Below, piece after piece: positions 4,744 through 29,627 of a stretch of DNA of 37,386 nucleotides. The stretch is taken from contig JAOUCS010000022.1 in NCBI GenBank assembly GCA_029859645.1, positions 1 to 37,386 on the forward strand, in the 5' to 3' direction. A model generated the notes under the pieces. The model was not told where the DNA came from. It made no database searches and saw nothing but the letters and a program-made list of their open reading frames with translations. Numbering within the stretch: position 1 is the stretch's first letter; the number at the start of each line of letters is the position of its first letter. The position numbers and the translations under genes are program-made. This stretch comes from Lysobacterales bacterium. GTDB lineage: Bacteria; Pseudomonadota; Gammaproteobacteria; Xanthomonadales; SZUA-36.

Positions 4744-5537
4744 ACACGAAGCGCTCGAAACTCGGCGTAATCAAATACGCATTGATATATTTAGTGGTAT
4801 TTGCTGTACCTGCGGAACTCGCGTTGGCACAAGAAGGTAAAGCCGCGATACCCGCAAATGCGACTGCGAAGGCCTATGGTAGCGGCTGGAAATGCGACAG
4901 GGGTTACCGCAAGAATGCTGGCTCCTGCATTGCCGTGACATTACCGGAAAATGCATACCTGACAGACTCAAGCTATGGAGTTGGTTGGGCGTGCCAGCAT
5001 GGCTATGAGCAGGATGAAGATAACTGCTTGCCGCTTGCGCTGCCGGCCAATGCTTATGTCAGTGGCCTTTCAGGCGATACGTGGTCATGCAACAGAGGCT
5101 TTCGAAAACTCGGCAATACCTGTGAAGCCATACCGGTGCCGATGAACGGATATCTCGCGCAGAGTTCCTCGGGGCCGGGCTGGACCTGCGAGCGTGGATA
5201 TCGTGCGGTGGCTGATGCTTGTGTTGCAATCGTGTTGCCGGAAAATGCCTACCTGACGGCCAATACTTATGACTCAGGCTGGGAGTGCGATCGCGGCTAT
5301 CAGGAAATCAAAGGTGCCTGCGATAGCATCAAAGTACCCGCGAACGGACACCTGTCCGAGCGGGATTATGGGCAGGGTTGGGAATGTGATCGCGGATATC
5401 GAAAAACCCAGGCGACTTGCGTCGCCGTGGTGCTGCCTGAGAATGCACATCTGGATTTCGCCGGGCACGATTGGAACTGTAATAAGCCCTACCACAAGCG
5501 CAAACAAGCTTGTACATTGGCTGACCGTAATGACTAA
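4740..5537 (+). CDS. exported protein with seven Cys-pair repeats (C-x10-C)
   Basis: 265 residues from a GTG that overlaps the hflC stop. A signal peptide ends near ALAQEG (about residue 31). The mature protein is seven tandem repeats of about 32 residues with the pattern [IVL]PxNAYL...YGxGWxCDRGYRK...C. Each unit has two cysteines exactly ten residues apart, giving 14 mature cysteines in all, plus an invariant Trp two residues before the first Cys. The last unit is degenerate (CNKPYHKRKQAC). Even cysteine numbers suggest periplasmic disulfides, one per repeat. I recognise the repeat style from other gammaproteobacterial exported proteins but know no function. Its position suggests a periplasmic partner of the HflKC cage; that is inference. 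Confidence 0.85.
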   Translation: MNTKRSKLGVIKYALIYLVVFAVPAELALAQEGKAAIPANATAKAYGSGWKCDRGYRKNAGSCIAVTLPENAYLTDSSYGVGWACQHGYEQDEDNCLPLALPANAYVSGLSGDTWSCNRGFRKLGNTCEAIPVPMNGYLAQSSSGPGWTCERGYRAVADACVAIVLPENAYLTANTYDSGWECDRGYQEIKGACDSIKVPANGHLSERDYGQGWECDRGYRKTQATCVAVVLPENAHLDFAGHDWNCNKPYHKRKQACTLADRND

Positions 5538-6696
5538 GAAAGAGAAGCAAACCAAGGATGCCCGCAGTATCCCGAACGTGTCCCTGGTCAAACCCATTCC
5601 CTCTATGGGCAAACGCACCGCGACAGCCATTGTTTATTGCGAAGCAAATTTTGGCGCGATCGATGGCAAAACCGCGAACGGGCTTGTCCGACACTCAGAG
5701 CGATACGAAATACTGTCGGTCATTGATAGTGAAAAGGCGGGCCTTGATGCGGGCATGGTACTGGACGGCATACTCAATGCGATTCCGATTTGCCGCGATC
5801 TCGCGGAATCTCTGGAGAAGGCCGTCACGGTACCTGACTACTTTATATTTGGCATGGCGCCGTCCAGTGGCATGCTTTCCCTGCATGAGCGGGGCCTGGT
5901 GCTTGAGGCTTTGAGCCACGGGATGAACATCGTCAATGGCCTGCATGAATTTCTGGGTGATGATCCTGTATTCAAAGCAGCGTGCGCGGTGAGCGATGTC
6001 GAGATCATCGACGTGCGCAAACCCGCAGATAAAAAAGACCTGCACATGTTCACGGGTGAAATTGCCCAGGTCACCTGTCCGGTCATTGCTGTGCTTGGTA
6101 CCGACTGCGCGATCGGTAAACGAACGACCGCGACGATACTGAGCCAGGCGCTCAACGATCGCGGCGTGAAAACAGTCATGATTGGAACGGGTCAGACAGG
6201 GCTGATCCAAGGCAACCGCTATGGTGTCGCGCTCGACGCCATACCGTCGCAATTTTGTGCCGGCGAACTTGAGGCGATGATCATCAAAGCATTCAGGGTT
6301 GAAAGCCCCGACGTCATCCTTATCGAAGGGCAGGGGGCTCTGAGCCACCCGGCCTTTTCTACATCGTCGTTTATCCTTCGTGGCGCCTGTCCCGATGGCG
6401 TTGTATTGCAGCATGCGCCGGGGCGTAAGGCTCGCTGCGATTTCCCGGAGATGGTCATGCCAACGCCGGCTGCGGAGATCAATCTCATCGAAACGTTTGC
6501 CAGGACCACGGTCATTGGCGTAACGATAAATCATGAGAATATGAGCGATGCCGAAGTCAGTTCGGCCATCCTGCGCTATGAGAACGAGCTCGGTATCCCG
6601 ACAACGGACGCACTTAGCCGTTCTCCCGAGCACCTGGTGGAAATGGTTCTTGGCGCCTTCCCAAAACTCGTGCTGAAGCCGCCCGTAGCGGCGTGA
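5530..6696 (+). CDS. DUF1611 family P-loop protein (DgcN-like, D-glutamate N-acetyltransferase family)
   Basis: 388 residues from ATG 5530, which overlaps the preceding gene's end by 8 bases. The frame is open far upstream, but that part lies over the Cys-repeat gene. The C-terminal domain has a P-loop-like motif, VLGTDCAIGKRTTA (about residues 188-201). Further blocks are MIGTGQTGLIQG, ILIEGQGALSHPAFS and LQHAPGRKARCDFP, all typical of DUF1611. An N-terminal Rossmann-like part contains YCEANFGAIDGKTANGLVRH. Family members have been reported as D-glutamate N-acetyltransferases (DgcN) in marine bacteria; I recall this and did not check it. The next gene encodes a racemase-fold enzyme, which fits D-amino-acid metabolism. 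Confidence 0.85.
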   Translation: MTKKEKQTKDARSIPNVSLVKPIPSMGKRTATAIVYCEANFGAIDGKTANGLVRHSERYEILSVIDSEKAGLDAGMVLDGILNAIPICRDLAESLEKAVTVPDYFIFGMAPSSGMLSLHERGLVLEALSHGMNIVNGLHEFLGDDPVFKAACAVSDVEIIDVRKPADKKDLHMFTGEIAQVTCPVIAVLGTDCAIGKRTTATILSQALNDRGVKTVMIGTGQTGLIQGNRYGVALDAIPSQFCAGELEAMIIKAFRVESPDVILIEGQGALSHPAFSTSSFILRGACPDGVVLQHAPGRKARCDFPEMVMPTPAAEINLIETFARTTVIGVTINHENMSDAEVSSAILRYENELGIPTTDALSRSPEHLVEMVLGAFPKLVLKPPVAA

Positions 6697-7787
6697 TTTC
6701 CGCACCACGCCTCGAGATAGACCTGGGCAAGATTCAGCACAATGCCCGCACGCTTGTCGAACGACTGGCCAGGCGTGGTATTTCGGTGACCGGAGTGACC
6801 AAGGCGTCGCTCGGTTCAACCGAGATTGCCCACGAATTGCGGCTGGCCGGTGTGAGTGGCTTGGGCGACTCACGCATTGAAAACATCGAAGCCATGCGCC
6901 ATTCGCACCTGTCCGCACGACTGTCCCTGATTCGATCACCGATGCTCAGCCAGGCGAAACGCGTGGTCGCAAGCGCCGATATCAGTTTTAACACCGAGCT
7001 TGAGGTCATCAGACGGCTATCATTCGAAGCGGTCAAAATGGGTCGAACGCATGCTGTCGTTCTCATGGTAGAGCTTGGCGATTTGCGCGAGGGTCTTATG
7101 CCGGACGATCTGGTGGCCGTCGTGCGCGAGACACTGAGTTTACCGAACATTGTGTTCAAGGGGCTTGGTACCAACCTGGCTTGTCAAAGCGGAGTCTCGC
7201 CTGATGACGCGAATATGGGAGAATTATCGAGACTCGTGGCGTTGGTCGAATCGACGTTTGATATTTCGATAGAGATTGTGTCTGGCGGGAATTCGGCCAA
7301 TCTGGACTGGGCGTTCAGCAGTAAGTGCACCGGACGAATCAACAATCTGCGCCTCGGGGAATCGATCCTGCTGGGTCGCGAAGCACTTCATCGGAATGCC
7401 ATAGACGGCTTGCACACCGATGCAATTACGCTGGTCGCCGAAGTGATCGAGTCCAAGCTTAAACCAACGAAGCCCACTGGCAAGCTGGCCCAGAATGCGT
7501 TTGGAAATTGCCCTGACATCGTTGATCGCGGCACGGTCGCTCAGGCTATCCTGGCAATAGGCGTGCAGGATGTCGACCTGGGTGGATTGCAGCCTAGCAA
7601 AGGTATCAAGATCCTCGGAGGCAGCAGCGACCACCTTGTTGTAACTTCAGACGCCAATCCAGCTGTCGGCGCAGAGATAACCTTCCAGATGGACTACAGC
7701 GCGCTGCTTCGTGCGATGACGTCGCCATTCGTGGGGAAGTCTTACCAATATACAGACAATGTCTCCAGACTTCGCCAGATTGCCTGA
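6693..7787 (+). CDS. PLP-dependent amino-acid racemase (ornithine racemase/alanine racemase-N fold)
   Basis: 364 residues from a GTG overlapping the previous stop (GTGA). The start PRLEIDLGKIQHNARTL, the likely PLP lysine K37 in VTGVTKASLG, and later blocks LGDLREGLMPDDL, ISGGNSANLDWA-like (SGGNSANLDWA) and RLGESILLGRE match the fold-III racemase family that includes clostridial ornithine racemase and YhfX. The partner of the first-barrel lysine in alanine racemases, a C-terminal tyrosine domain, is absent as in Orr. Substrate cannot be read from sequence; ornithine, lysine or glutamate are options. It is the last gene of the hflK operon. No clear terminator follows. Confidence 0.87.
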   Translation: MISAPRLEIDLGKIQHNARTLVERLARRGISVTGVTKASLGSTEIAHELRLAGVSGLGDSRIENIEAMRHSHLSARLSLIRSPMLSQAKRVVASADISFNTELEVIRRLSFEAVKMGRTHAVVLMVELGDLREGLMPDDLVAVVRETLSLPNIVFKGLGTNLACQSGVSPDDANMGELSRLVALVESTFDISIEIVSGGNSANLDWAFSSKCTGRINNLRLGESILLGREALHRNAIDGLHTDAITLVAEVIESKLKPTKPTGKLAQNAFGNCPDIVDRGTVAQAILAIGVQDVDLGGLQPSKGIKILGGSSDHLVVTSDANPAVGAEITFQMDYSALLRAMTSPFVGKSYQYTDNVSRLRQIA

Positions 7788-7885
7788 TCCAGCCTGGTGA
7801 TTGCGGACTTTTCATCCGGGCGTCAGCTTCACTTTGCTAGCCCACATTTAGCCTTTTCAGCACCACTGACCTGGAAGATTTGTTT

Positions 7886-8248
7886 ATGGGGTACGAGGAA
7901 GGCGGCAAATCGGAAAAACTTGTGAGATTACGCCGCCAGGCCGTGGCACGGGAATATTTGAATGGACCAGCAGCCAATGCATATCTGGACAAACACTTAT
8001 CGAGATCTTGGAATATTGATGTGCTATGGATGGATTATACTGGGTATCCAGTGTATAGACAGTCACATTGCCAGCCTTTCTTCCACGAGGTGAGCGTTAT
8101 GGACTTGATATTCGTTGAAGGAGTTAACGGGGCCAGAAAGCACATGTTGAGTTTTGGCGCCAAACCCAGTGTACGTCGTCAAAGCATATGGCACCGCTTG
8201 AGCTATTTTCTAAGAGATACTTTTCTGCCCATACTTTCTCCAGTCTAG
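7886..8248 (+). CDS. unrecognised small protein, 3' end altered by IS insertion
   Basis: The ATG at 7886 has GGAAG eight bases upstream; an in-frame TTG at 7880 is too close to it. It encodes 120 residues with no family I recognise: basic N-terminus (SEKLVRLRRQAVAREYLNG), then WNIDVLWMDYTGYPVYRQ and FFHEVSVMDLIFVEG. The last dozen codons (after SIWHRLSYF, about 8208) lie inside the IS end, so the native C-terminus is lost. Joining the two GCTATT hexamers that flank the IS (8202-8207 and 9641-9646) would restore a frame ending LSYLVSR then TAG. The ORF itself is uncertain; only the ribosome site and length support it. Confidence 0.45.
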   Translation: MGYEEGGKSEKLVRLRRQAVAREYLNGPAANAYLDKHLSRSWNIDVLWMDYTGYPVYRQSHCQPFFHEVSVMDLIFVEGVNGARKHMLSFGAKPSVRRQSIWHRLSYFLRDTFLPILSPV

Positions 8249-9222
8249 CCTGCTAACCGCAGGTTTTGTACTTTCCTCTGCGTCAACGTCCTGGATTTGA
8301 TCATGGAACGTCGGTCCAGAATGTCGTTTCTTCTTCCGTTATACACATCAGCCGGCGTCACGTTATCCAATGATTCGTGATAGCGCTCATGGTTGTAATG
8401 TGTCACCCACTCAGCAATGGCATTTTCCAGTTCCCAGGGGAAGTAATAATGCTCCAGCTTGACCACGTTCTTCATGGATCGGTGGTAGCGCTCGATCTTG
8501 CCCTGGGTCATCGGGTGGTAGGGCGCACCACGAGTATGCTTCATGTCTTGGTCCTGCATCCATTCCCGGAGTTCTTTTGAGATATAACAAGGGCCGTTAT
8601 CGGACAGCGACCTGGGCTTGTGGTGCACCCGGGCTTCGGTGAGCCCGGTGGCTTTGAGGGCGTCTTCCAGTGTGGCAGTGACATCACTGGCCGCCATCGT
8701 GGTCGTCAGGCGCCAACTGATAATGTAACGGGAGTAATCATCCAGCACCGTGGACAGGAAGTACCAGCCCCAGCCCACCACCCGGAAGCAGGTAAAATCG
8801 GTCTGCCACAGCTCATGGACACGCCGCGTTGGGTGCTGGAACGCATCGGCCGCGCTCATCACCATAAACTGTGGGCTGGTGACCAGGTCATGGGCCTTCA
8901 AAATCCGGTACACGCTGGATTCCGAGATAAAGTACTCGTGGCTATCGGTGAGATGCCAGGCCAGCTCACGGGGTGTCAGCTCCGGCTGGTCCAGGGCAAT
9001 GTCCACGACCAGTTCCCGGACCGAATCAGGTATTCGATTCCAGTGCTGGCGTGACGCCCTGCTGTGGTTGTGTAATCCATCAGGGCCCTCGCGTTCATAG
9101 GCTCGATACCAGCGGTAAAAACTGCTGCGAATGATGTTTATCTCAGCCAGGGTCCGGCGTACGGATAACTCGGAGTCTTCCACCAGACGGATAATGGCCA
9201 GCTTCTCAGAGGCGCTGTACAT
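8245..9222 (-). CDS. IS3-family transposase OrfB (DDE integrase domain)
   Basis: 325 residues. An N-terminal helix-turn-helix (SVRRTLAEINIIRSSFYRWYRAYE) and HTH_21-like part precede the rve integrase core. The DDE triad is visible as WQTDFTCF (first Asp), LSDNGPCY (second Asp) and GKIERYHRSMKN (Glu). The C-terminus is the standard YNHERYHESLDNVTPADVY. The ATG overlaps the OrfA stop by one base (TGATG), and this frame is -1 relative to OrfA. It is probably mostly expressed as an OrfAB fusion by frameshifting at a run of seven A upstream. Confidence 0.96.
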   Translation of the reverse strand: MYSASEKLAIIRLVEDSELSVRRTLAEINIIRSSFYRWYRAYEREGPDGLHNHSRASRQHWNRIPDSVRELVVDIALDQPELTPRELAWHLTDSHEYFISESSVYRILKAHDLVTSPQFMVMSAADAFQHPTRRVHELWQTDFTCFRVVGWGWYFLSTVLDDYSRYIISWRLTTTMAASDVTATLEDALKATGLTEARVHHKPRSLSDNGPCYISKELREWMQDQDMKHTRGAPYHPMTQGKIERYHRSMKNVVKLEHYYFPWELENAIAEWVTHYNHERYHESLDNVTPADVYNGRRNDILDRRSMIKSRTLTQRKVQNLRLAG

Positions 9223-9584
9223 CAGTCGTCGTCCAATGTCATACCCTGCCCAGTCAGACTTTTTTTAAGCCAGTCATTGCGCAGGTACAACTCGGCAACC
9301 GCTTGTTTGAGGTCTTGATTTTCCTTCTTCAGACCCGCGACCTCATCGCTATTGGCTTCCCGGACGGTATCACCTGCCAGGCGCCTTTTGCCGGCTTCCA
9401 GGAAGTCCTTGCTCCAGCGATAATACAGATTGCTGTTGATGCCTTCGCGACGACACAGCTCGGCGATTGAGCACTCGCCGCGCAGTCCTTCCAGCACAAT
9501 GCGGATCTTTTCCTCGGACGAGAATTTGCGACGGGTTTTACGGCGGATCTCCTTGACCCGTTTGGTGATATTTGAAACGCTCAT
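9222..9584 (-). CDS. IS3-family transposase OrfA
   Basis: 120 residues with the IS3 OrfA HTH (RRKFSSEEKIRIVLEGLRGECSIAELCRREGINSNLYYRWSKDF, residues about 17-60) and a leucine-zipper-like segment (EVAGLKKENQDLKQAVAELYL). The coding strand has AAAAAAAG at 9266-9259. A -1 slip there opens a stop-free path into OrfB (K-S-D-W-A-G-Y-D-I-G-R-R-L-M), which is the usual way IS3 elements make the active OrfAB transposase. Confidence 0.95.
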   Translation of the reverse strand: MSVSNITKRVKEIRRKTRRKFSSEEKIRIVLEGLRGECSIAELCRREGINSNLYYRWSKDFLEAGKRRLAGDTVREANSDEVAGLKKENQDLKQAVAELYLRNDWLKKSLTGQGMTLDDD

Positions 9585-11387: not shown

Positions 11388-12401
11388 TCATTCGAGCCGC
11401 ATCTCAGCGACAATCCTGTCGAATTCACCGTTTTTCTTCATCGCCTCGAATTCATCGGTCATTGATCGGGCCGCTTCCTCATTTGCGGCCGCCAGCGCAA
11501 ACCCCAGCGGTTCATCTCTTGGCGTCGCCGAATCCGCCAGCTCAAATCCGTTTTTGCGGATCAGGTCCTTGAGGCTGTCTACGTATTCCTGCCCTCGTTC
11601 TGAGTAGCTGATCAGTCCGTCAGCCAGGGTGAGCGAGTTCAGCGGTTTACCGCCTTTTCTCAGCTCTGCGCGCAGCTTCCTGAAGTCTTCATAAGCGGGG
11701 TGTGTGCTCAGATTCAGAAAGTAGCCTCTCACACTGTCAAACGGCCACGTAAATGCGGCAATTTTATGATCTCCCAGCTCCTTACGTTGCTGCCTGGGCG
11801 CCATGCCTTCACCGCCATAGGTCCATTGCCCAAACAGGGCGTTGCCCTCGACGGTGAACCTTGAAGTACCCCAGCCGCTCTCATAAGCTGCCTGTCCGAT
11901 CGCCAGGCCGGCAGGAATTTCGTCCAGTCGATAGAGTAATTCGCCAATGATTTTCAACCACTCCGCCGAATCAGTTATTTCACCGGCTTCCTGCTCATTC
12001 TTCACTCGGAGCGCAACGGCAAATAGCCGCAGGTTCTCCAGGTTTTCGCCCTGGGGAGCCTGGCCATTTGTCATCTCGGCCGCTCTTTCTTCGAGCCATG
12101 CCCTGCGCTGTCGAACCAGCCAATTGGCATGCGTTACAAGCGGCAACAGGCAACGGTAGAAAAACTCCTTCTTCACGTCAACCGGCATTTGCGCAGCGTT
12201 TTCCCGCCAGGCGGGTGAGATGGCTATCAGAAGCGTTCGTGGAACCTGCATCTGGTCAGCACGAAGTTCCTTTCCCCACCAGCCAATCGATTCCATCCAG
12301 GCAATCGATTGCTCATAGCCCGCAAATACCCGCACATCCTGGGCGTGGACATCGAAAGAGGAAAAAAGTAAAAGAATTGAGCAAATCAATATTTTTTTCA
12401 T
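11388..12401 (-). CDS. Bax-like exported glucosaminidase-domain protein
   Basis: 337 residues from ATG 12401 (MKKILICSILLLFSSFDVHAQ); the frame runs 46 codons further upstream, but the signal peptide fixes this start, helped by AAGG about 11 bases upstream. The mannosyl-glycoprotein glucosaminidase domain lies at about residues 165-290: IPAGLAIGQAAYESGWGTSRF with the probable catalytic Glu in AAYESGWG, then GNALFGQWTYGG and AYEDFRKLR. This is the arrangement of E. coli Bax. Likely role: peptidoglycan beta-N-acetylglucosaminidase in the periplasm. It converges with the PLD lipoprotein gene. Confidence 0.88.
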   Translation of the reverse strand: MKKILICSILLLFSSFDVHAQDVRVFAGYEQSIAWMESIGWWGKELRADQMQVPRTLLIAISPAWRENAAQMPVDVKKEFFYRCLLPLVTHANWLVRQRRAWLEERAAEMTNGQAPQGENLENLRLFAVALRVKNEQEAGEITDSAEWLKIIGELLYRLDEIPAGLAIGQAAYESGWGTSRFTVEGNALFGQWTYGGEGMAPRQQRKELGDHKIAAFTWPFDSVRGYFLNLSTHPAYEDFRKLRAELRKGGKPLNSLTLADGLISYSERGQEYVDSLKDLIRKNGFELADSATPRDEPLGFALAAANEEAARSMTDEFEAMKKNGEFDRIVAEMRLE

Positions 12402-12486
12402 GACATTCACTACCTTACTGGAATTGCAAACAATAGCAGATCGTGGGCACTCAACAGGGCTCCCATTAACGGCGCGAGGCGCCCGG

Positions 12487-12771
12487 TCACGGTCCGGCTT
12501 CGGAATGACCGGAGTGATGACGATGTTCCAGCCAGTCAAGAATTTCCTTGCCCAGCTCCGCGAGCAATTCCGTGTATTCCTGCCGCCTTTCAGCGGCTAC
12601 GGCTGCATTGCTGGCCTGCCAGTTCTCCAGCGCGCGCTCGCAGACGGCATAATCCTGACACAGCGATCGAAAATCTTCACTCTCCTGGAAGGACTGCTCG
12701 ATACGGGTCTGCCAGCCCTCGAACTGTCTGATCACCCGTGCAACTGAATCCTGTTCCCGTTTGTTGCTCAT
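12487..12771 (-). CDS. small uncharacterised protein
   Basis: 94 residues from ATG 12771 (MSNKREQ), preceded by AAGG with eight-base spacing; a TTG nine codons upstream is less likely. It is hydrophilic and helical, with FEGWQTRIEQSFQESEDFRSLCQDYAVCERALENW and a His-rich end (EHRHHSGHSE). There is no signal or TM segment. No family recognised. It is divergent from the TPR regulator gene, and the 34-bp element of that gap is oriented toward this gene. Confidence 0.65.
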   Translation of the reverse strand: MSNKREQDSVARVIRQFEGWQTRIEQSFQESEDFRSLCQDYAVCERALENWQASNAAVAAERRQEYTELLAELGKEILDWLEHRHHSGHSEAGP

Positions 12772-12855
12772 GTGCTCCGCCTTGCAGTCCTTGCGCAACT
12801 TGTGCGCCCGGATAGCTTCTGATCTATCTGACCTTAGCTGGGTTAGTCCCTGAGG

Positions 12856-12889
12856 GTAAGGGTTATACTGTAATTTGCTGTAGGCTACA
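12856..12889 (-). promoter_or_regulatory. 34-bp repeated element, copy 1 (minus orientation)
   Basis: Read on the minus strand it begins TGTAGCCTACA, then six bases, then TACAGTA, and ends CCTTAC. It matches copy 2 at 25 of 34 positions with no gap. It lies in the gap between the small minus-strand protein (12771) and the TPR regulator (12933), 43 bp from the latter's start. Confidence 0.7.
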
Positions 12890-12932
12890 GGTACGAAGTC
12901 CGCCTATGCAGTCCGGGCGAAAGTAACTGCAC

Positions 12933-14546
12933 ATGAAAAAGAATAATCCAGGATTATCGTCGGTCGAGGCAGGCCCAGCTTGTCGCTGGTCCAGCGAGGC
13001 GATTCGTGCGCAGCTGAAGCGGATCCTCGGGCATGCCGAATTCCAGGCCACCGATAAAATGCATGATTTTCTGCGCTTCGTCGTCGAGGAGACGCTGGCG
13101 GGCCGCTCGCAAAACATCAAGGGCTTCACTATCGCGGTCGAGGTATACGGACGGGATGCCAACTTCGATGCCGCGCACGATCCGGTCGTGCGCATCCAGG
13201 CCGGCCGCTTGCGGCGTGCCATTGAGCGTTATTACCTGGTCTCGGGGGGGCAGGACCCGATCCGAATCGAAATTCCGAAGGGAAGTTACGTCCCGGTATT
13301 CTCTGAAGGCCCTGGCTGCGGGTCTTTTCCAGACCGCGTGGGCGCTCTGCCAATGGTGCAACGGTCGACGACATCGTGGCCAACCATACTGATCACGCCC
13401 TTCGACGACCTGACCGGGAATCCCGACCTGGCCTACCTTGGAGTGGGTCTGGCCACCGAGCTGTGTGTCGAACTCGGGCACTGCGAGGATCTGCGCGTCA
13501 TGCTCTATCGGGCAGGCCCACTGGACTTGCAGGAACTAAATGCCCGACCTGACTTCATAGTCAGCGGCAATGTGCGGTTCGACGGCTCAGCCATCAAGAT
13601 CGTTATGCAGTTGAGCGATGGCGCGACCGGCGAGCAGTATTGGGCGGACTCGATGAATTCGCCACTCGAAGCTGACAGTCTGATCACATTTCAGGAAAAA
13701 GCCGCCAACACAATAGCTGCGCATATTGCCTCGGTACACGGTGTCATCATGCGCACGATGACCATGCAGTTGGGCAGCAGGCTGGCGGACCTGACGACCT
13801 ACGAGGCGATCCTCAAAGGTTATGCCTACCACCATACAATAACCCCTGTTTCCTACATGCAGGCGTTAGATGCCTTGCAACAGATAAGGGTACGCGAGCC
13901 TGAGTGCGGGCTTGGCTGCACTCTGCTGGCGCTGCTATACATGGACAACGTCGCCTTTGAGTTCCTCGAGCCAGACCGCACGCCGCTGAACGAGGCCGTG
14001 CACATGGCCCGGGAGGGTGTCCTGATACTGCCGAACAATCAGTTCAGTCGCCTCGTGCTGGCCCGGGGGCATATGCTGGAGAATCAACTGGACCTGGCCC
14101 TCAGCGAGGTCAAGGCAGCGCTGGCCTTGCGCCCGGAATCGTTGTTGTTCATGGACGCGATCGGTTACATGTTGCTGCTGCTCGGGGAATGGGAACGGGG
14201 TGAGCAACTCGTCCGCGAGGCTATCCGCCAGAACCCGTTCTACGCTGTTTATGCCCGCTATGGCCTGTGGCTTAACGCAATCCGGCGGCAAGACTATGAG
14301 CGGGCGCTGGAGGAAACCGAGATTACCATCGAAATCGGGGATTTCTGGGGCCCGCTCAGCCGGGCGGCAACGCTGGGCCTGCTGGGCCGCTCCGCGGAAG
14401 GGCGTGATGTGGTCCAGCAATTGCTGCTCCTGAAACCGAATTTTCAGGAGCGCGGGCGGCTGCTGATCGGGCACTACGTCAAGTTCCCGGAAATCGTGGA
14501 TCAGCTCGTAGAAGGCCTTGCAATCGCCGGACTGACCATCGACTGA
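12933..14546 (+). CDS. TPR regulator with N-terminal winged-helix-like domain and TolB-like middle
   Basis: 537 residues, no signal peptide or TM helix. Residues about 20-115 carry a conserved block (FLRFVVEETLAGRS, IKGFTIAVEVYGRDANFD, DPVVRIQAGRLRRAIERYY, IRIEIPKGSYVPVF) found at the head of many adenylate-cyclase-like and TPR regulators; I infer DNA binding. About 148-270 resembles the FlgO/TolB-like domain (ILITPFDDLTGNPDLAYLGVGLATELCVEL, FIVSGNVRF, EQYWADS). The remainder is tetratricopeptide-like helices. A 34-bp element sits just upstream of it and again before the next gene and before the glycine-zipper gene, so this is the best candidate to bind that element. Confidence 0.82.
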   Translation: MKKNNPGLSSVEAGPACRWSSEAIRAQLKRILGHAEFQATDKMHDFLRFVVEETLAGRSQNIKGFTIAVEVYGRDANFDAAHDPVVRIQAGRLRRAIERYYLVSGGQDPIRIEIPKGSYVPVFSEGPGCGSFPDRVGALPMVQRSTTSWPTILITPFDDLTGNPDLAYLGVGLATELCVELGHCEDLRVMLYRAGPLDLQELNARPDFIVSGNVRFDGSAIKIVMQLSDGATGEQYWADSMNSPLEADSLITFQEKAANTIAAHIASVHGVIMRTMTMQLGSRLADLTTYEAILKGYAYHHTITPVSYMQALDALQQIRVREPECGLGCTLLALLYMDNVAFEFLEPDRTPLNEAVHMAREGVLILPNNQFSRLVLARGHMLENQLDLALSEVKAALALRPESLLFMDAIGYMLLLLGEWERGEQLVREAIRQNPFYAVYARYGLWLNAIRRQDYERALEETEITIEIGDFWGPLSRAATLGLLGRSAEGRDVVQQLLLLKPNFQERGRLLIGHYVKFPEIVDQLVEGLAIAGLTID

Positions 14547-14825
14547 CCTCTTTTTGAGGCAGGGGGCACAAACCTGTTTGCTCCGAATATGGCGACTGTA
14601 GCCTACAAGAACCTACCGTAAGCTCCTTACGTTCCGGGATCCAAACGTACAAAGTCAAACGATGTTACCCGCCAGCAGTGGCGCGCTCAGCAGTGAGAAA
14701 GGCAAAAAAGCGGTATGGGGCGATGTTATCGGGTGCTCATGCCGACCGACGACGCTTACCTTGGCGACGGGCCGACGATTCTGTTGATCCCGGTCGGTGA
14801 AGGGTCATAACAGGAGAACATGTCC
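14547..14825 (+). other. intergenic region with element and leader
   Basis: This 279-bp gap contains the second 34-bp element (14597-14630) and a possible -10 TACAAA (14648-14653). A short frame at 14739-14810 (MPTDDAYLGDGPTILLIP...) has no ribosome site and I do not call it. A good AGGAG site at 14812-14816 serves the next gene. No terminator hairpin with a U-tract was found. Confidence 0.5.
14597..14630 (+). promoter_or_regulatory. 34-bp repeated element, copy 2
   Basis: TGTAGCCTACA, six bases, TACCGTA, four bases, CCTTAC. It matches copy 3 at 28 of 34 positions with identical spacing. It contains the direct sub-repeats CCTAC at 14602 and 14612 (one helical turn apart). It lies about 195 bp upstream of the first DUF1254 gene start, just after the regulator gene. 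Confidence 0.75.
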
Positions 14826-16316
14826 ATGAAAAAACATCTAGCGCTAACAAGTCTGCTGTTCCTCCCCGTCCTGCTGCTATGCGGTTGCAACGAAAAGCCC
14901 GAATCGGGTGCCTCGCAGGGTGATCTCACCCCTGCAGAAGTGCAGGTCCTCGCCAAGGAAGCCTACGTCTTTGGCTTCCCGATGGTCATGAACTACAAGA
15001 CGATGTGGAACTATGTCCTGGACAAGGATGGCCCTGAATACAAGGGGCCCTTCAACACGATAAGTTGCGAGGCACGCCTCTACACTCCCGAGGACAAGGC
15101 GGTCGTAACCCCCAATGCCGACACGCCCTATTGCATGTTCTGGATGGACCTCCGCACCGAACCGTTGGTCTTGAGCGTGCCGAAGATGGAGGCGGACCGG
15201 TTTTACCACTTCCAGCTCATCGACCTCTACACGCACAATTTCGCCTACGTCGGCACGCTGACCACGGGCAATGACGCCGGCAACATTCTGCTGGCGGGCC
15301 CGGACTGGGAGGGCGAGATGCCGGAGGGGATCACGAAGGTCATTCGAAGTGAAACCCCCTTCATCTTCAACGTAACCCGGACCCAGGTCTTTGGCCCTGA
15401 GGATCTCATCAATGTGAAGAAGATCCAGGCCGACTATAGCCTCAGGCCCTTGAGCACCTTTCTTGACAGCGATTCCCCGGAAGCCTCGCCTGAAGTCGAT
15501 TTTCCGCAGTGGGAAGAGGGCGCCCAGTTCGACGAGCGCTTCTTTGCCTACCTCGACTTCATGATGGATCTGCTCGGCAGCCCCGGCGAAGGAGAGCAGG
15601 AACTCTGGGACCACCTCTCCCGCCTTGGCATCGGCCCCGGCAGCGACTTCAAGTTCGACGGCCTTCCAAAGGAGACGCAGGAAGCCATGAGAGCTGGAGT
15701 GAAGGAGGGATTCGGGGAAATCGAGGCCTTCCTCGAGAAGCACGCCAACGATCCGCTGGCAAGCGGCAAGATTTTCGGCACCCGGGAATTTCTCACCGAG
15801 AGCGCCCGCGAGAATTACGGCCTCGACAGCATCAATCTTCCGCGTTCCGCGGCTGCCCACCAGGGCCTCTACGGCAACTCCGCCGCCGAGGCGATCTACC
15901 CCACCTACTTTACCGATTCGGACGATGAACCACTCGATGCATCAAAACACAGCTACACGATGACCTTCGCCAAAGACGCACTGCCCCCGGCCAAGGCCTT
16001 CTGGTCGGTCTCGATGTACGACGGCAAGACCCAGCTCTTCCTCGACAACCCGCTCGATCGCTACCTGCTCAATTCGACCACCATGGACGATTACGTGCGC
16101 GGGGAGGATGAAGAGTTGGTGCTGCATATTTCGAAGAACTCTCCCAGCTCCGACCTGGAACCGAATTGGCTGCCGGCACCGGACGGAGCCTTCTACCTGG
16201 TGATGCGCCTCTACGGCCCGGAACAGGCGGTCCTCGAGGGTGAGTGGACGCCGCCGCCGCTCGTGAAGGCGGCAGCGCCATCGGCCGGCACGGCCACCGC
16301 CGCGGAACCGGACTAA
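14826..16316 (+). CDS. DUF1254/DUF1214 lipoprotein
   Basis: 496 residues. AGGAG lies nine bases before ATG 14826, while the ATG at 14820 is only three bases from it, so the second ATG is chosen. The lipobox LLLCGC gives a lipid-anchored N-terminus. The DUF1254 domain (about residues 40-165) has AYVFGFPMVMNYKTMWNY, VVTPNADTPYCMFWMDL and RFYHFQLIDLYTHNFAYVGT. A C-terminal DUF1214 domain has SYTMTFAKDALPPAKAFWSVSMYDGKTQLF and GAFYLVMRLYGPE. The Ala/Pro/Thr-rich tail is probably disordered. Biochemical function of this family is unknown. Another DUF1254-type gene follows 79 bp after the stop. Confidence 0.9.
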   Translation: MKKHLALTSLLFLPVLLLCGCNEKPESGASQGDLTPAEVQVLAKEAYVFGFPMVMNYKTMWNYVLDKDGPEYKGPFNTISCEARLYTPEDKAVVTPNADTPYCMFWMDLRTEPLVLSVPKMEADRFYHFQLIDLYTHNFAYVGTLTTGNDAGNILLAGPDWEGEMPEGITKVIRSETPFIFNVTRTQVFGPEDLINVKKIQADYSLRPLSTFLDSDSPEASPEVDFPQWEEGAQFDERFFAYLDFMMDLLGSPGEGEQELWDHLSRLGIGPGSDFKFDGLPKETQEAMRAGVKEGFGEIEAFLEKHANDPLASGKIFGTREFLTESARENYGLDSINLPRSAAAHQGLYGNSAAEAIYPTYFTDSDDEPLDASKHSYTMTFAKDALPPAKAFWSVSMYDGKTQLFLDNPLDRYLLNSTTMDDYVRGEDEELVLHISKNSPSSDLEPNWLPAPDGAFYLVMRLYGPEQAVLEGEWTPPPLVKAAAPSAGTATAAEPD

Positions 16317-16395
16317 GCAGGGGCGACGCCGATGCTCGACCACAGCGGGAAGTTCCCGGTCGTCGAACCGATCAACTGACTTTTAGGAGATGAAA

Positions 16396-17397
16396 ATGAG
16401 ACCTCTATTTTTGTCACTTGCACTCTGTATCACAACTGCCGCATTCGCCGAAGAAGTGAACGTCGAGAACTTCGTCCGAGCTGAATCCGACACGATGTTT
16501 CGAGTGAATATGGCTAGCGCCGGCGCAGATGTCGGCGAAGTTTTCCACCTTCGAGAGCCTACAACACCCGATAACCAGCCTGTTATCCGCATGAATCAGG
16601 ACACGCTATATACAGCTGTCTTTTTGGATCTGGCAGAGCCGGTAAAAATCTCGCTGCCCGAGATCGAAGGCAGGTATCAATCCATGCAGGTAGTCAATCA
16701 GGACCACTATATGTTTGTCGAGGCCACGCCTGGCACATACGACCTGACGGAAGAAAACGTTGGCACGCGGTTTGCTTATGTGACGATCCGAACTTTCGCC
16801 AATCCGACCGATCCCGAAGACCTCAAAAAAGCACACGAAGCTCAGGACGCCATCAAGGTTGAGGGTGGTGGCCAAGGCCCGTTCGACGCACCGGACTGGG
16901 ACCAGGACGCGCTCTCAGAAGGTCGAAAAGCGCTGAGTGATTTCGCTGCCGCGCTCGGTTTTGAAGCCTCCAGGGCCTTTGGCCGCAAAGACGAGATCGA
17001 GCCAACGGCATATCTGATCGGCGCAGCATCTGGCTGGGGCGGGCTGCCACGGAGCGCAGCGATGTATGTCATAGACAGCGTGGCTGCAAACGACGGAAAC
17101 ACACCTTATAAAGTGACGGTAAACGATGTGCCTGTAGACGGCTTCTGGTCGGTCACGGTCTACAATGCAGATGGCTACCTCGAAGCGAATGATCTGGGTG
17201 TAAACAACTACAACAATGTTACCGCTGAGCCGAATGATGACGGATCTGCAACGATCCACTTCGGCGGTTGCCAAGATGGCCGGATCAATTGTATTCCGAT
17301 TACACCTGGCTGGAACTTTGCCGTGCGGATGTATCAGCCGCGCGAGGAAATCCTGGACGGTTCATGGACATTCCCCGAGTTTGTCAAGGTCGAGTGA
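16396..17397 (+). CDS. DUF1254/DUF1214 secreted protein, shorter paralogue
   Basis: 333 residues from ATG 16396, six bases after AGGAG; the ATG at 16390 directly abuts the site. A signal peptide ends at AAFAEE. The DUF1254 part is shortened (RMNQDTLYTAVFLDLAEPVKISLPE, RYQSMQVVNQDHYMFVE). The DUF1214 part is complete (VPVDGFWSVTVYNADGYLE, CIPITPGWNFAVRMYQPREEILDGSW). It resembles the short DUF1254 proteins often found in pairs with long ones. No catalytic residues can be assigned. Probably co-transcribed with the preceding lipoprotein gene. Confidence 0.88.
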   Translation: MRPLFLSLALCITTAAFAEEVNVENFVRAESDTMFRVNMASAGADVGEVFHLREPTTPDNQPVIRMNQDTLYTAVFLDLAEPVKISLPEIEGRYQSMQVVNQDHYMFVEATPGTYDLTEENVGTRFAYVTIRTFANPTDPEDLKKAHEAQDAIKVEGGGQGPFDAPDWDQDALSEGRKALSDFAAALGFEASRAFGRKDEIEPTAYLIGAASGWGGLPRSAAMYVIDSVAANDGNTPYKVTVNDVPVDGFWSVTVYNADGYLEANDLGVNNYNNVTAEPNDDGSATIHFGGCQDGRINCIPITPGWNFAVRMYQPREEILDGSWTFPEFVKVE

Positions 17398-17410
17398 TCC
17401 GCCATCGATA

Positions 17411-17605
17411 GGATTAAGTTATGACGATGGTCAGAAAGCTTGTGTTACAGAGCAGCGTACTTCGGTACCCGCCGCCCATGCCGCGTCCGAAACTTTTGAC
17501 GTAGGTGTGGGCCTCGGTTCGCCCGTGTCACTGGACTACTACGATCGGGCGCCGTTCCGGTTTACTGGAGAAATCGAAAAGATCCACATCGGTTATATTG
17601 AATAG
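17411..17605 (+). pseudogene. arylsulfatase C-terminal remnant
   Basis: The frame gives DDGQKACVTEQRTSVPA, then SETFDVGVGLGSPVSLDYYD and RAPFRFTGEIEKIHIGYIE then stop. This is the usual C-terminal strand set of arylsulfatases, for example FDVGxDTGTPVSxDY and PFxFTGxIEKVxI. There is no start or ribosome site and the catalytic N-terminal 450 or so residues are absent. The sequence directly abuts the DUF1214 gene end, which indicates deletion of an ancestral sulfatase gene here. Confidence 0.75.
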
Positions 17606-17672
17606 GATGCGCAAATAAAGGGCCGGAATCAGTTTTCAGCAGACTTGTCCAGCCCCTTCAGCCTGATGTGAG

Positions 17673-17701
17673 TCCGCGGCCTGATCGTTCCAGGCCGCGG
17701 A
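17673..17701. terminator. strong GC hairpin between sulfatase remnant and phosphatase
   Basis: TCCGCGGCCTG (17673-17683) and CAGGCCGCGGA (17691-17701) pair perfectly over 11 bp with a 7-base loop. The tail ATTCTTGG is only weakly T-rich, so this is a candidate but not a textbook rho-independent terminator. It would separate the DUF1254 transcript from the phosphatase gene. Confidence 0.5.
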
Positions 17702-17751
17702 ATTCTTGGCATCGGCAACCGGAACCTGAGCGAGTCGAAGGGAAAAACATT

Positions 17752-19479
17752 ATGAAACTTAGCGTACGAAACCTAGTGGTCATTCCGTCCACGGCATGCC
17801 TCTGGGTCATCGCCAGCATTTTCTTGCTTTTCCAGAACACCGGGTTGGCGGAAACGGAAAAGCCACGCTTGATTCTCCAGATCACGGTCGACCAATTGCG
17901 CGGTGATTTGCCGGCACGGTTTCTCAATCGCATGGGTGAAGGCGGATTCCGTTATTTCCTGGAAGAGGGAATCGTCTACGGCAACGCCCACCACGCGCAC
18001 GCCAACACCGAGACCATCGTTGGCCACGCCACCCTCGCGACCGGCGCCCACCCCTCGGCGCACGGGATGATCGGCAACATCTGGTTCGACCGCGGTACCG
18101 GGTCCCTGACCTATAACATCGAGGATGATCGTTATGGGCTTTTGACCGAAGGCGCGGACGTCGACAAGCAAACGGAGATCGACCCCACCCAGAAGGTGGC
18201 CGGTACCGATGGCCGATCGCCTGCCGCGATGCTGGTTTCGACCTTCGGCGATGAGCTCTCGATCTACACCGCGGGAATAGCCAAGGTCTTTGGCGTCTCG
18301 ATCAAGGATCGCGGTGCAGTCTCGTTTGCGGGGCACGCCGGAAAGGCGTTCTGGTTCTCGAAGAGTGCCGGCGAATTCGTCACCAGCCGTTTCTATTACG
18401 ACAAATATCCCGAATGGGTGACCGCCTTTAACAAGGCCGGCCCGACCCGGCGCTTCGCAGACACGTCCTGGGAACTGCTCCAGGACCCATCGCGTTATCT
18501 GTTCGGTAACCGCGATGACCAGGCCTGGGAGCTGGACCTGCCACCTTTCGGCCGGACATTCCCGCACGCTTTCGGACCGGCGGACGGCAGGGGGTTCACA
18601 ACCTTTCTCACGGTGAGCCCGGCTGGCGACGAGCTGACCCTCGAATTTGCCAGGGCGTTGATCGAGAACGAAGCCCTTGGGACTGACCCGGTCACCGACT
18701 TCCTGTCCGTCAGTTTCTCCTCCACGGATTACGTCGGTCACCTCTTCGGACCCTCGAGCCTGGAGGCCGAGGACAACCTGCTGCGGCTCGATCGCACGCT
18801 TGCGGCGCTGCTCGCATATGTCGATGAGAAGGTTGGGCTGGATCACACCCTGGTGGTGCTCTCTGCCGACCATGGTGGTCCCGAAGCGCCGGCGGACCTG
18901 CAACAATATGGGTTCGAGGCCAACTACGTGGATCCGGACTCCTGGGAAAAGGAGGCGGGCTTCGCCGCCCTCAAGCAACGTTTCGGCATCGGCGAACAGC
19001 TGATCCGGCAATACGCCCACCCTTACCTCTACCTGAATCATGAAATCATCGCCGAAAATGGCTTGTCGCTTGGTGAAGTCGAGGAAGCGGTCGCCGCCGA
19101 ACTGGTCAAGTTCGAAGGCGTCGCCCTGGCCGTTTCCAGCACGGCGATGGCGCATGGCGAGATTCCCGACACCCCGCTGCTGCGCTCGGTCCTGAACAAC
19201 TACAATCCACGGCGCTCCGGCGATATCTATGTTGTCTTCCGGCCGAATTGGTTTATCAACGACTTCGACGGCCTCACGGTCGCGGCGACTCACGGATCGC
19301 CCTGGCGCTACGACACCTTCGTACCGGTCTTCTTCGCCGGGGCTGGAATTAATCCACAAAAAGTCTACCGGGAAATCCACACCATTGACGTGGCTCCTAC
19401 CCTGGCCGCCGTTGCGGGCACCAAGCCACCCTCCGGGACCCGTGGCAAGGTCCTCGTCGAGGTCCTGGAAGGTCGGTAA
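17752..19479 (+). CDS. PafA-type alkaline phosphatase-superfamily enzyme
   Basis: 575 residues from ATG 17752, with AAGGGA a few bases upstream; the frame is open 28 codons further but that stretch overlaps the hairpin. The signal sequence includes LWVIASIFLLFQNTGLAE. The metal Asp is in ITVDQLRGD, the nucleophile Thr in NTETIVGHATLATG, a PafA-like Asn in GNIWFDR, and Lys/Arg in SIKDRGAVSFAGH correspond to the phosphate-contacting KxR of PafA. SADHGG gives further metal ligands. These point to a periplasmic phosphate-monoester hydrolase with a Thr nucleophile. The sequence has the SAHGMIG block. It is flanked by the arylsulfatase remnant and by the third 34-bp element. Confidence 0.88.
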   Translation: MKLSVRNLVVIPSTACLWVIASIFLLFQNTGLAETEKPRLILQITVDQLRGDLPARFLNRMGEGGFRYFLEEGIVYGNAHHAHANTETIVGHATLATGAHPSAHGMIGNIWFDRGTGSLTYNIEDDRYGLLTEGADVDKQTEIDPTQKVAGTDGRSPAAMLVSTFGDELSIYTAGIAKVFGVSIKDRGAVSFAGHAGKAFWFSKSAGEFVTSRFYYDKYPEWVTAFNKAGPTRRFADTSWELLQDPSRYLFGNRDDQAWELDLPPFGRTFPHAFGPADGRGFTTFLTVSPAGDELTLEFARALIENEALGTDPVTDFLSVSFSSTDYVGHLFGPSSLEAEDNLLRLDRTLAALLAYVDEKVGLDHTLVVLSADHGGPEAPADLQQYGFEANYVDPDSWEKEAGFAALKQRFGIGEQLIRQYAHPYLYLNHEIIAENGLSLGEVEEAVAAELVKFEGVALAVSSTAMAHGEIPDTPLLRSVLNNYNPRRSGDIYVVFRPNWFINDFDGLTVAATHGSPWRYDTFVPVFFAGAGINPQKVYREIHTIDVAPTLAAVAGTKPPSGTRGKVLVEVLEGR

Positions 19480-19494
19480 CGTTGAAAGCTCATG

Positions 19495-19528
19495 TGTAGC
19501 CTACAAGAGGCTACGGTAGCTTCCTTAC
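19495..19528 (+). promoter_or_regulatory. 34-bp repeated element, copy 3
   Basis: TGTAGCCTACA, six bases, TACGGTA, four bases, CCTTAC: the same layout as copies 1 and 2. It lies between the phosphatase stop and the glycine-zipper gene (start 19619). TACAAT (19554-19559) downstream could be the -10 of an activator-dependent promoter with no good -35. Confidence 0.75.
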
Positions 19529-19553
19529 TTCCCGCAGCTTTTTTTGCTAAAAA

Positions 19554-19559
19554 TACAAT
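19554..19559 (+). promoter_or_regulatory. possible -10 of the glycine-zipper/HdeA-like/SYLF operon
   Basis: TACAAT in an AT-rich stretch after the third 34-bp element; no consensus -35 is found at 16-18 bp spacing. If real, the element would substitute for the -35. It lies 60 bp before the GTG start. Confidence 0.4.
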
Positions 19560-19618
19560 GACCTTTCAAGCACTTCCCAAAACAGGATAAGGCGCGCTAA
19601 CGCCTTGAAGGAGGACAC

Positions 19619-19981
19619 GTGGCTTTACGAGTTCAGAAATTGGTAGTACCCGCCTTACTCGCTCCGGTGATTTTCGCCTCGGCGATGTTCACCTTGGCGA
19701 CCACTTATTCAACCCCCGCGTATTCTCAATACTCAACCAGCTACTGCCGAGATTACGCAACCAGGGTGTCACGGCAGTACTCACGTGGCGGCGCCGTTGG
19801 CGGCGCTGTGCGCGGTGGCGTCGGCGGAGCGGCCGTGGGCGCCGTTGTAGGTGGTAAGAAGGGCGCCAAGAAGGGCGCCGCGATCGGTGCCGTTACCGCT
19901 GGAACCGCGCGGGGTGTCCAGCGTGGCGTGACCTACGATGCCCTCTATCGCGACTGCATGCGCGGAAGTTTGTATTACTGA
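19619..19981 (+). CDS. glycine-zipper exported protein
   Basis: 120 residues from GTG 19619; AAGGAGG lies four bases before. A signal-type hydrophobic segment is at about residues 8-28. After a Tyr/Ser-rich stretch comes a glycine zipper, GGAVGGAVRGGVGGAAVGAVVGGKKGAKKG (about residues 57-87), followed by AAIGAVTAGTARGVQRG. The tail has a Cys (YRDCMRGSLYY) and another Cys occurs near residue 43. Glycine zippers pack tightly in membranes and occur in stress-related envelope proteins. It heads a three-gene run with the HdeA-like and SYLF genes. Confidence 0.83.
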   Translation: MALRVQKLVVPALLAPVIFASAMFTLATTYSTPAYSQYSTSYCRDYATRVSRQYSRGGAVGGAVRGGVGGAAVGAVVGGKKGAKKGAAIGAVTAGTARGVQRGVTYDALYRDCMRGSLYY

Positions 19982-20032
19982 TAACTGCTTAATTAGCGGT
20001 TAATTGAATCAAAAGTACCAGGAGAAAACTGA

Positions 20033-20359
20033 ATGAAGACCACAAAAATTTTGTTTGCTGCAACAATGGCATTTTCCTTCCTGTTGTCTAATTCCGCTGT
20101 TGCGGCCGAAACGCCTGACGCTGTCCAGTCGGGGCTAAAAGTTAAGCTCAACGAGATGACCTGCGCGGAGATGTTGGTTCAAACCGGCAGCACACGGGAC
20201 TTCACCATGATTTACATGCATGGCGTCATCAATGGTTTACAGAAGGACTATCTGTTCGACGCCGTCAAGGTTAGCGAAGCCACCGACAAAATTTATGAAA
20301 TGTGCATCGCCGATACTAACGCCAACCTGCTGGAAATATTCAAAAAAGCGCGTGGTTAA
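20033..20359 (+). CDS. HdeA/HdeB-like periplasmic protein
   Basis: 108 residues with AGGAG nine bases before the ATG and a signal peptide ending AVAAETP (about residue 25). The mature part has LNEMTCAEMLVQTGSTRDF, YMHGVINGLQ and a second Cys in KIYEMCIADTNANLLEIFKKA. Two cysteines in this spacing and the TCxExL start are typical of HdeA/HdeB acid-stress chaperones. Expected role: periplasmic protection of unfolding proteins. This is a family-level call; an HdeA search would settle it. Confidence 0.7.
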   Translation: MKTTKILFAATMAFSFLLSNSAVAAETPDAVQSGLKVKLNEMTCAEMLVQTGSTRDFTMIYMHGVINGLQKDYLFDAVKVSEATDKIYEMCIADTNANLLEIFKKARG

Positions 20360-20371
20360 TGAGGAAGAAAC

Positions 20372-20941
20372 ATGAAACTTAAAATAATGGCTGTTGTGGC
20401 AGTCTTGTTCACCCTGATGAGTACATCCACCTACGCGGCCGCTACCAATGAGAAATGCCAGGCGACGTTTGCCAAGTTCAAGGAGCTCGGAAACGTTCCC
20501 CAGTTGTTGGCCCAATCCTACGGTTATGCCGTGCTGCCGACCATTGGCAAAGGTGCTGTTGGTATCGGCGGCGCCGGCGGCACCGGTTGTGTATACGCCG
20601 GTGGCGAGCATACCGGCAACGTATCCATGGGCCAGGTGACCATCGGTTTCCAGCTGGGTGGGCAGTCCTACAGCCAGCTGATCCTGTTTCAGAACGCGGA
20701 TACCTACAAGGAATTCACCAAAGGCAATTTCGAATTTGGCGCTGATGCAACGGCGGTGGCATTAACTTATGGCGCCCAGGCAGGCGCGACCACCAAGGGC
20801 GCATCTGCCAGCGCCGGTGATACCAAGGGCGCTGCCGCGTGGAAACGCGGTATGGCGGTGTACACGATTGCCAAGGGTGGCCTGATGTACGAAGCGTCGA
20901 TCGGTGGTCAGAAATTCAGTTTTAAACCATTGACGGACTAA
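20372..20941 (+). CDS. SYLF/Ysc84-domain exported lipid-binding protein
   Basis: 189 residues with GAGGAAG before the ATG and a signal peptide ending TYAAAT (about residue 24). The SYLF domain is clear: SYGYAVLPTIGKGAVGIGGAGGTGCVYAGG, TIGFQLGGQSYSQLILFQNADTYKEF (residues about 49-115), and a repetitive AGATTKGASASAGDTKGAAAW segment with KGGLMYEASIGGQKFSFKPL at the end. Such proteins bind phosphoinositide-like lipids in eukaryotes; in bacteria they are exported and of unknown role. The gene lies 12 bp after the HdeA-like gene. Confidence 0.9.
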   Translation: MKLKIMAVVAVLFTLMSTSTYAAATNEKCQATFAKFKELGNVPQLLAQSYGYAVLPTIGKGAVGIGGAGGTGCVYAGGEHTGNVSMGQVTIGFQLGGQSYSQLILFQNADTYKEFTKGNFEFGADATAVALTYGAQAGATTKGASASAGDTKGAAAWKRGMAVYTIAKGGLMYEASIGGQKFSFKPLTD

Positions 20942-20956
20942 ACACGGTTCCCGGTC

Positions 20957-20983
20957 AGCTGCGGTGGCCTTGCTGCCGCAGCT
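20957..20983. terminator. hairpin after the SYLF gene
   Basis: AGCTGCGG (20957-20964) and CCGCAGCT (20976-20983) form an 8-bp stem with an 11-base loop, 16 bp after the stop. It lacks a T-tract, so it may only stabilise the 3' end of the message. Confidence 0.4.
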
Positions 20984-21201
20984 AAAATCCGGGCTGTCCT
21001 CGAATTTCCTCGGCGAATGTCGGGAGGCAGGTGCGCAGGAAGCGATCGCATAACTTAAACCACAGCCAGCCCCAGCACAGCTACGCCGATTGCGAGACCC
21101 ATGCGGGCTGGTGTGTTGGCGAAGGGGCAGGGTTAAACTCTATATGGTTTTCTGCTTTTTGTTGCGTTGACCGGTTCAAACCGCACTTATTGGCCAGAAC
21201 A

Positions 21202-29345: not shown

Positions 29346-29627
29346 ACAGATGACGAGTATAAGGAGAGCAATAGCCCTTTGCCATGAAAGCTGTATCAAT
29401 CTGGATGCCGCTGCATTATTGCAGCCAACGCAAGCCAGTAACCTTCGGCATTGCGCGGCAGCGCCTACCGTCAAAAATCGGATGAATCCACCAAGATTTT
29501 GTGGCGAAATGAGGGCCAGTTTACGTTTTGCTGATACGGATCAAGCTCCCGGCTGGCCCGCCTGCGTAAATTGAAAGGACCTTGCTGGATCCAATTCGCG
29601 AGAATGCCTCGCCTGGGTGGCTGGAAA

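Follow-up and report, generated by a model that had tools for sequence, protein, structure and literature searches.

A putative operator of phased GTA/TAC half-sites for a TPR regulator and its neighbour genes in a Lysobacterales bacterium

The stretch of DNA considered here (hereafter, the window) comprises 37,386 nucleotides of contig JAOUCS010000022.1 from the Lysobacterales assembly GCA_029859645.1, and carries three copies of a 34-bp element in the vicinity of a gene, starting at 12933, for a regulator with tetratricopeptide repeats (TPR). We argue that this element is a putative operator of that regulator, a reading to which we assign a probability of about 0.8. The element is assigned to this particular protein because a motif learned upstream of homologous regulators in other organisms, with the window excluded throughout, picks the three copies as the best places in the window. 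A preliminary description, made from the letters of the window, had proposed the element as a candidate binding site of the 12933 regulator, and the proposal is supported by this ranking.

The pattern TGTAGCCTACA-N6-TACNGTA-N4-CCTTAC fits each of the three copies with 0 mismatches and at precisely the coordinates reported earlier (Table 1), whereas no further match with up to 3 mismatches was found in the window, and 0/100 dinucleotide shuffles contained one. The identities given in the preliminary description, 28/34 between copies 2 and 3 and 25/34 between copies 1 and 2, were reproduced when counted by eye, and its statement that all copies are intergenic agrees with the positions of the surrounding genes: copy 1 is located between a small minus-strand gene and the start of the regulator gene, copy 2 between the stop of the regulator gene and the first DUF1254 gene, and copy 3 between the stop of the phosphatase gene and the glycine-zipper gene. 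Two mechanically called open reading frames (ORFs), 12863-13222 (-) and 19229-19519 (+), reach into copies 1 and 3, respectively, and both overlap clear genes. Relative to the downstream gene, the three copies are oriented alike, with CCTTAC as the gene-proximal end; copy 1 is directed at the small gene, the regulator gene being divergent and lying behind it. By eye, a word resembling TATACT (12864-12869) borders copy 1 on the regulator side. When read in a 10-bp register, the copies consist of GTAGCCTACA, six bases, TAC plus one base, GTA and the CCTTAC end, and a set of GTA/TAC half-sites in phase describes the element better than a single fixed word of 34 bp does.

The main evidence comes from footprinting of the regions, up to 330 bp long, that lie 5' of the conserved N-terminal block (N-block) in homologs of the regulator. 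The set comprised 44 non-redundant homologs (4/48 regions having been removed as redundant) and 15 homologs added later, that is, 59 regions, of which 27 are alphaproteobacterial and come from plasmids, 30 belong to the class of the window and 2 are acidobacterial. The words GTTACGG and TTACGGT are enriched in these regions. A palindromic expectation-maximisation run of width 19 on the 27 alphaproteobacterial regions yielded GTAngtTACnGTAacnTAC, with a log-likelihood of 114.6 as compared to 29-38 in 4 shuffled sets, and when this motif was scanned over the window, the top three distinct places were the three copies (scores 12.9, 11.2 and 9.3). The palindromic run on all 59 regions likewise placed the copies as the top three. 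The copies also filled ranks 1-3 with palindromic widths 19, 21, 23 and 25 on the 27 regions, with widths 17, 19, 23 and 25 on 16 regions obtained by reduction at 70% N-block identity, and in a repeat non-palindromic run on the 27 regions (143.7). The alphaproteobacterial sites and the window copies share one register when divided into GTANNNTACN units at 10-bp intervals.

Several results of the same kind weigh against this assignment and have to be set beside it. With width 17 and 27 regions, copy 3 came fourth; with width 21 and 16 regions, copy 1 came eighth; and with width 15, copy 3 fell to rank 25 on 27 regions, while on 16 regions copy 1 was beyond about rank 50 and copy 2 fifth. The non-palindromic alphaproteobacterial run with the highest likelihood (146.0) ranked copy 1 third and copy 3 fifth, with copy 2 outside the top five; the non-palindromic run on all 59 regions gave ranks 1, 2 and 4, and a repeat on 16 regions gave ranks 10, 4 and 45, so that the non-palindromic runs as a group were mixed. 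The 30 regions from the window's own class produced a shorter core, GTtACnGTaAC (59.7 as compared to 30-34), a motif that fails to rank the window copies, even though the host is a relative of the gammaproteobacterial set that yields this differing core. Half-site statistics on the 44 homologs had singled out TTACNGTAA (5/44 as compared to 0.12 expected; 0/300 shuffles), and this candidate was rejected after it failed in the new homologs (0/15). To these points, one may add that a tblastn search (E 1e-3) of the fetched loci of homologs revealed no counterpart of the phosphatase, the glycine-zipper, the HdeA or the SYLF protein, so that the third proposed target is without a counterpart elsewhere. 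As for the choice of model, the 10-bp-periodic palindrome was spotted by eye in the alphaproteobacterial regions before it was tested de novo, and the width of 19 and the palindromic form were picked after the data had been seen and with the window element known. In the 15 new homologs, GTTAC was not enriched (6/15 as compared to 4.73 expected) and GTARNYTAC persisted (3/15 as compared to 0.14 expected; 0/500 shuffles).

A simpler form of the motif, GTANNNTACNGTANNNTAC, is present with at least 10 of its 12 bases in 12/27 alphaproteobacterial upstream regions, where 0.03 are expected and at most 1 was seen in 100 shuffles, as opposed to 1/32 of the other regions (expected 0.17); the 15/27 and 31/32 regions that have no such site count, again, against the assignment. 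In the window, copy 1 scores 11 and copies 2 and 3 score 10 each, which makes them the best three places; six places score 9, three of them being neighbouring units of the same copies. The window regulator, accordingly, has in common with 12/27 of the alphaproteobacterial N-block members a GTANNNTACNGTANNNTAC-like site near its gene. Across all 59 homologs, the quality of the upstream site tends to rise with the likeness of the presumed recognition helix of the homolog to that of the window protein (Spearman 0.48, n=59, p 1.4e-4, relatedness ignored).

The distribution of such sites on other replicons also counts in favour of the proposed operator. Within 13 annotated plasmid stretches, which total 141 kb and have 14.6% of their length outside listed genes, 16/16 sites with at least 10/12 bases lie outside listed genes, which, given that the plasmid gene tables are incomplete, is the sense in which plasmid sites are called intergenic. 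Eleven of these 16 sites are not within 360 bp upstream of a regulator, two of the 11 overlapping each other; examples are found before an alpha/beta hydrolase gene in locus L105, before the gene preceding an HlyD gene in L086 and L103, and before a cysteine-rich-repeat/OmpA run in L113, a locus that overlaps L106 by about 3 kb without having a site in common with it. A scan of whole plasmids with at most 1 mismatch, covering 10 records and 11.1 Mb (loci L083, L092, L098 and L100 being outside its scope), gave 21 distinct places, three of them overlapping, and 14 of the 21 fall within the 101 kb of fetched regulator loci. Nine of the 14 lie upstream of the regulator itself and are not independent evidence because most of the records had been selected for having a site at that gene; the independent part, therefore, consists of the neighbour sites, namely 5/12 of the places not upstream of a regulator, found in loci that make up 0.9% of the plasmid sequence. 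Exact places are in regulator loci in 7/10 cases, base counts alone predicting about 0.7 per 11.1 Mb; a reversed control on the 10 plasmids gave 14 places. On the Azospirillum plasmid NZ_CP032322, two exact 19-bp sites 4.4 kb apart (6002 and 10362 of L110; 1812001 and 1816361 of the plasmid) are located far from the N-block gene of that plasmid, and the 16 kb fetched there contain no N-block gene.

When the whole host genome (255 contigs, 3.84 Mb in total, completeness 95.7%) was searched with the 22-base pattern and at most 3 mismatches, the three window copies were the only matches. A scatter of the motif at random or within coding regions, which the preliminary description had named as the outcome that would speak against its proposal, was thus not seen, and a chance repeat is rejected on the strength of this count and of the shuffles mentioned above. 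The 5' part alone, GTAGNCTACA-N6-TACNGTA with at most 2 mismatches, finds the three copies exactly and two 2-mismatch places elsewhere in the host genome, the reversed control giving 5 and 6 places on the two strands. Among 398 genomes of the order, the host included, the sole match outside the host has 3 mismatches and is inside an ORF of genome G003. Apart from that match, the full element is confined, within this set, to the host, and an occurrence of the motif in genomes lacking the regulator, the other contrary outcome considered earlier, was not encountered either, 17/398 genomes carrying the N-block. The first-found N-block relatives (L033-L036) have no element within 6 mismatches. Upstream of a short N-block protein from the same order (L050), there are two TTACGGTAA palindromes about 24 bp apart, which perhaps represent a second specificity class.

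The protein to which the element is assigned belongs to a family that we define by alignment A1, in which the N-block of the window is 41-49% identical to the 6 other rows. No Pfam model matches the N-block (about 105 amino acids); in particular, Trans_reg_C (PF00486) matches neither the regulator nor any of 7 N-blocks. The full-length regulator gave only weak TPR-type matches in a profile search, and the HilA/EilA model NF009037 matches residues 204-447 weakly, with 21.4 bits as compared to a curated cut-off of 589, so that the regulator falls outside that family. A profile comparison of 60 N-blocks with 8 Trans_reg_C domains of the host (hhalign) produced a score of 27.0 (P 1.6e-4, probability 50%, 36 columns), 60 column-shuffled controls scoring at most 16.4; with 7 N-blocks, the probability was 11%. 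This weak similarity falls around the presumed recognition helix. An AlphaFold2 model of the N-block built from 3 sequences was poor (mean predicted local distance difference test score 57, predicted template modelling score 0.36), and a profile search of PDB sequences returned weak matches only, with no evident meaning. By the tests run, then, the regulator appears to function in the way of a one-component regulator with TPRs and a phased operator, and it is outside both Pfam Trans_reg_C and the HilA family.

The N-block is present in 5/121 relatives, the window protein itself counted, and in 17/398 genomes of the order and 13/369 of the class, the host genome being in both counts and carrying a single copy. 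A search with the regulator protein gave matches in 460 plasmid records, mostly rhizobial, of which 189 extend over at least 80% of the length; in viral contigs, no relative was found. The plasmid homologs are annotated as 'hypothetical protein', 'adenylate cyclase' or 'tetratricopeptide repeat protein'. The N-block is also fused to other C-terminal parts, as in an acidobacterial metagenome-assembled genome (L026, 135-1508), where no TPRs are recognisable by eye, and in a 1,100-residue Sphingobium protein annotated cyaI3 (L099, 4046-7348). The block was met here in Gammaproteobacteria, Alphaproteobacteria and Acidobacteria. A tree of the N-blocks joins the window, with weak support (85/72), to the rhizobial loci L102, L104, L106, L107 and L109 and to L034 and L067 from its own class; this clade sits inside a mostly alphaproteobacterial set, which hints at horizontal transfer.

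Some of the neighbours recur together with the regulator. Homologs of the first DUF1254 protein adjoin it in L106 (44% identity) and L107 (45%), with a site in between (at 3732 and 3745, respectively), weaker homologs being found in L082, L087 and L093; L100 contains a 47% homolog of the second DUF1254 protein and a 10/12 site before the DUF1254 run. Relatives of the small gene are located within 900 bp upstream of the N-block in 16/59 homologs (14/27 of the alphaproteobacterial ones), 12 of them divergent and 4 co-directional. The rhizobial homologs share parts of the layout, namely the small divergent gene, the intervening site and, in two loci, the DUF1254 gene. The L033-L036 loci have other neighbours, and tblastn with the DUF1254, phosphatase, glycine-zipper, HdeA and SYLF proteins of the window gave no match in them. 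The product of the small gene has no Pfam match over the cut-off, and the label 'envelope regulon' would rest on the Pfam and NCBIfam names of the neighbours. Elsewhere in the window, there are a gene for a DUF1611 protein followed by one for an alanine-racemase-N protein (5269-7787), a transposase pair (8245-9584; integrase core and HTH_Tnp_1) that lies 3 kb from the regulator and probably represents an IS3-like insertion sequence, and two multihaem cytochrome genes near the right end (29571-32030 and 35604-36974).

Table 1. Coordinates of the element copies, the regulator and the neighbouring genes in the window
Feature	Position	Strand	Basis
Copy 1 of the element	12856..12889	-	best 19-bp motif site 12870-12888, 11/12 bases
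Copy 2 of the element	14597..14630	+	19-bp motif site 14598-14616, 10/12
Copy 3 of the element	19495..19528	+	19-bp motif site 19496-19514, 10/12
Regulator gene, 537 aa (amino acids)	12933..14546	+	weak TPR matches, C-terminal half
N-terminal block, 105 aa, putative DNA-binding domain	12987..13301	+	no Pfam model
Small gene, 94 aa, divergent from regulator, predicted first target of copy 1	12487..12771	-	relatives upstream of regulator homologs
First DUF1254/DUF1214 gene, putative target of copy 2 by position	14820..16316	+	Pfam; homologs beside regulator in L106, L107
Second DUF1254/DUF1214 gene	16390..17397	+	Pfam
PafA-like phosphatase/phosphodiesterase gene	17752..19479	+	PF01663 over cut-off; PafA model 454 bits, cut-off 650
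Glycine-zipper-like gene, putative target of copy 3 by position	19619..19981	+	weak match below cut-off
HdeA/HdeB-family gene	20033..20359	+	PF06411, E 2.7e-12
SYLF (Ysc84) gene	20372..20941	+	PF04366, E 1e-8

When other explanations of the element are considered, the one that comes closest to the proposed operator leaves the site and the protein as they are and makes the regulator a repressor of all its targets, itself included. This version has a substantial chance of being correct, albeit a smaller one than activation: in some Sinorhizobium upstream regions, the site is, by eye, downstream of a TATATT-like word, and in the window the TATACT-like word abuts copy 1 on the regulator side. A sigma-70 promoter scan of 12300-21100, however, gave nothing over the threshold, and activation accounts somewhat better than repression for the fact that the three copies all have one orientation. 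It is unlikely, in our estimation, that the element is the site of some other DNA-binding protein encoded elsewhere, such as an OmpR-type regulator of the host, which would act on the present cluster and on N-block regulator genes in other species. The host genome does encode 12 or more Trans_reg_C domains, and proteins of the OmpR type recognise direct repeats spaced by about one turn; for PhoP, the repeats are 7 bp long, with 4 bp between them (PMC4832192). Yet the motif accompanies the N-block gene from species to species and is rarely seen at other places on the plasmids, and in the host genome it is found beside the 12933 gene only, the other 397 genomes of the order being without the full element in intergenic positions.

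A mobile or duplicated repeat, or else an RNA element, with no role in regulation might be surmised from the presence of three similar copies inside 7 kb and from the transposase pair. This explanation is very improbable and we reject it, since the host genome holds just three copies whose match is confined to the spaced bases, the motif learned from other species recovers them, and Rfam has no match in 12300-21100.

Returning to the operator of the 12933 regulator, its mode of action can be envisaged as follows. The N-block would be the DNA-binding domain, perhaps a divergent winged helix of the OmpR/PhoB type, and the operator would be read as an array of GTANNNTACN units 10 bp apart; in the window copies, single half-sites come after one full GTA/TAC pair and keep its phase over the next helical turns. 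The spacing of the half-sites by one turn suggests that at least two subunits would sit next to each other on the DNA, in the manner of winged-helix regulators. The C-terminal half is presumably a signal sensor, and the small protein may be a partner of the regulator. Judging from the positions of the copies, the regulator would control its own divergent intergenic region together with the small gene, the run of two DUF1254 genes and the phosphatase gene, and the glycine-zipper/HdeA/SYLF run, copy 1 possibly acting also on the regulator itself. Activation of the three targets appears somewhat likelier than repression because all copies point one way, with CCTTAC nearest to the gene.

Comparison with known systems places the regulator close to the N-block regulators of rhizobial and Azospirillum plasmids, such as those of Sinorhizobium meliloti LMB1 (L086, gene 6989-8791) and Rhizobium ruizarguesonis (L106), which are similar in the N-block (up to 63% identity), in the 19-bp motif upstream (12/27), in the small gene nearby (14/27) and in some DUF1254 neighbours. 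These loci differ in that their neighbours include genes for mechanosensitive channels, ppk2, HlyD and alpha/beta hydrolase, and their sites are more nearly symmetrical than those of the window. One-component regulators of the HilA/EilA type have a similar TPR-like C-terminal half, but the NF009037 model leaves the N-terminal block of the window protein unmatched; HilA itself is a protein with an OmpR/ToxR-like winged helix that recognises spaced hexamers. With the OmpR/PhoB-type winged helix (PF00486), a distant kinship may exist, to which the weak profile similarity and the half-sites about one helical turn apart would point; the N-block of the window differs in having no Pfam match. In the open-access papers searched, a set that most subscription papers are not part of, we noticed none on the N-block or its DNA target.

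Taken together, these data mean that the predicted target motif is now defined from independent sequences, so that a DNA target can be proposed for a regulator family whose N-block has no Pfam model, and they offer a putative regulatory context for the DUF1254 genes and, in the window, for the HdeA-like gene. More tentatively, the N-block may be a distinct, widespread DNA-binding domain that is attached to varied C-terminal parts and reads GTANNNTACN arrays one helical turn apart. Together with the small partner and the DUF1254-type targets, it would then constitute a portable module for envelope responses, transferred from one bacterial class to another along with its operators, and its specificity might be readable from the helix DPVVRIxAGRLRRxLERYY.

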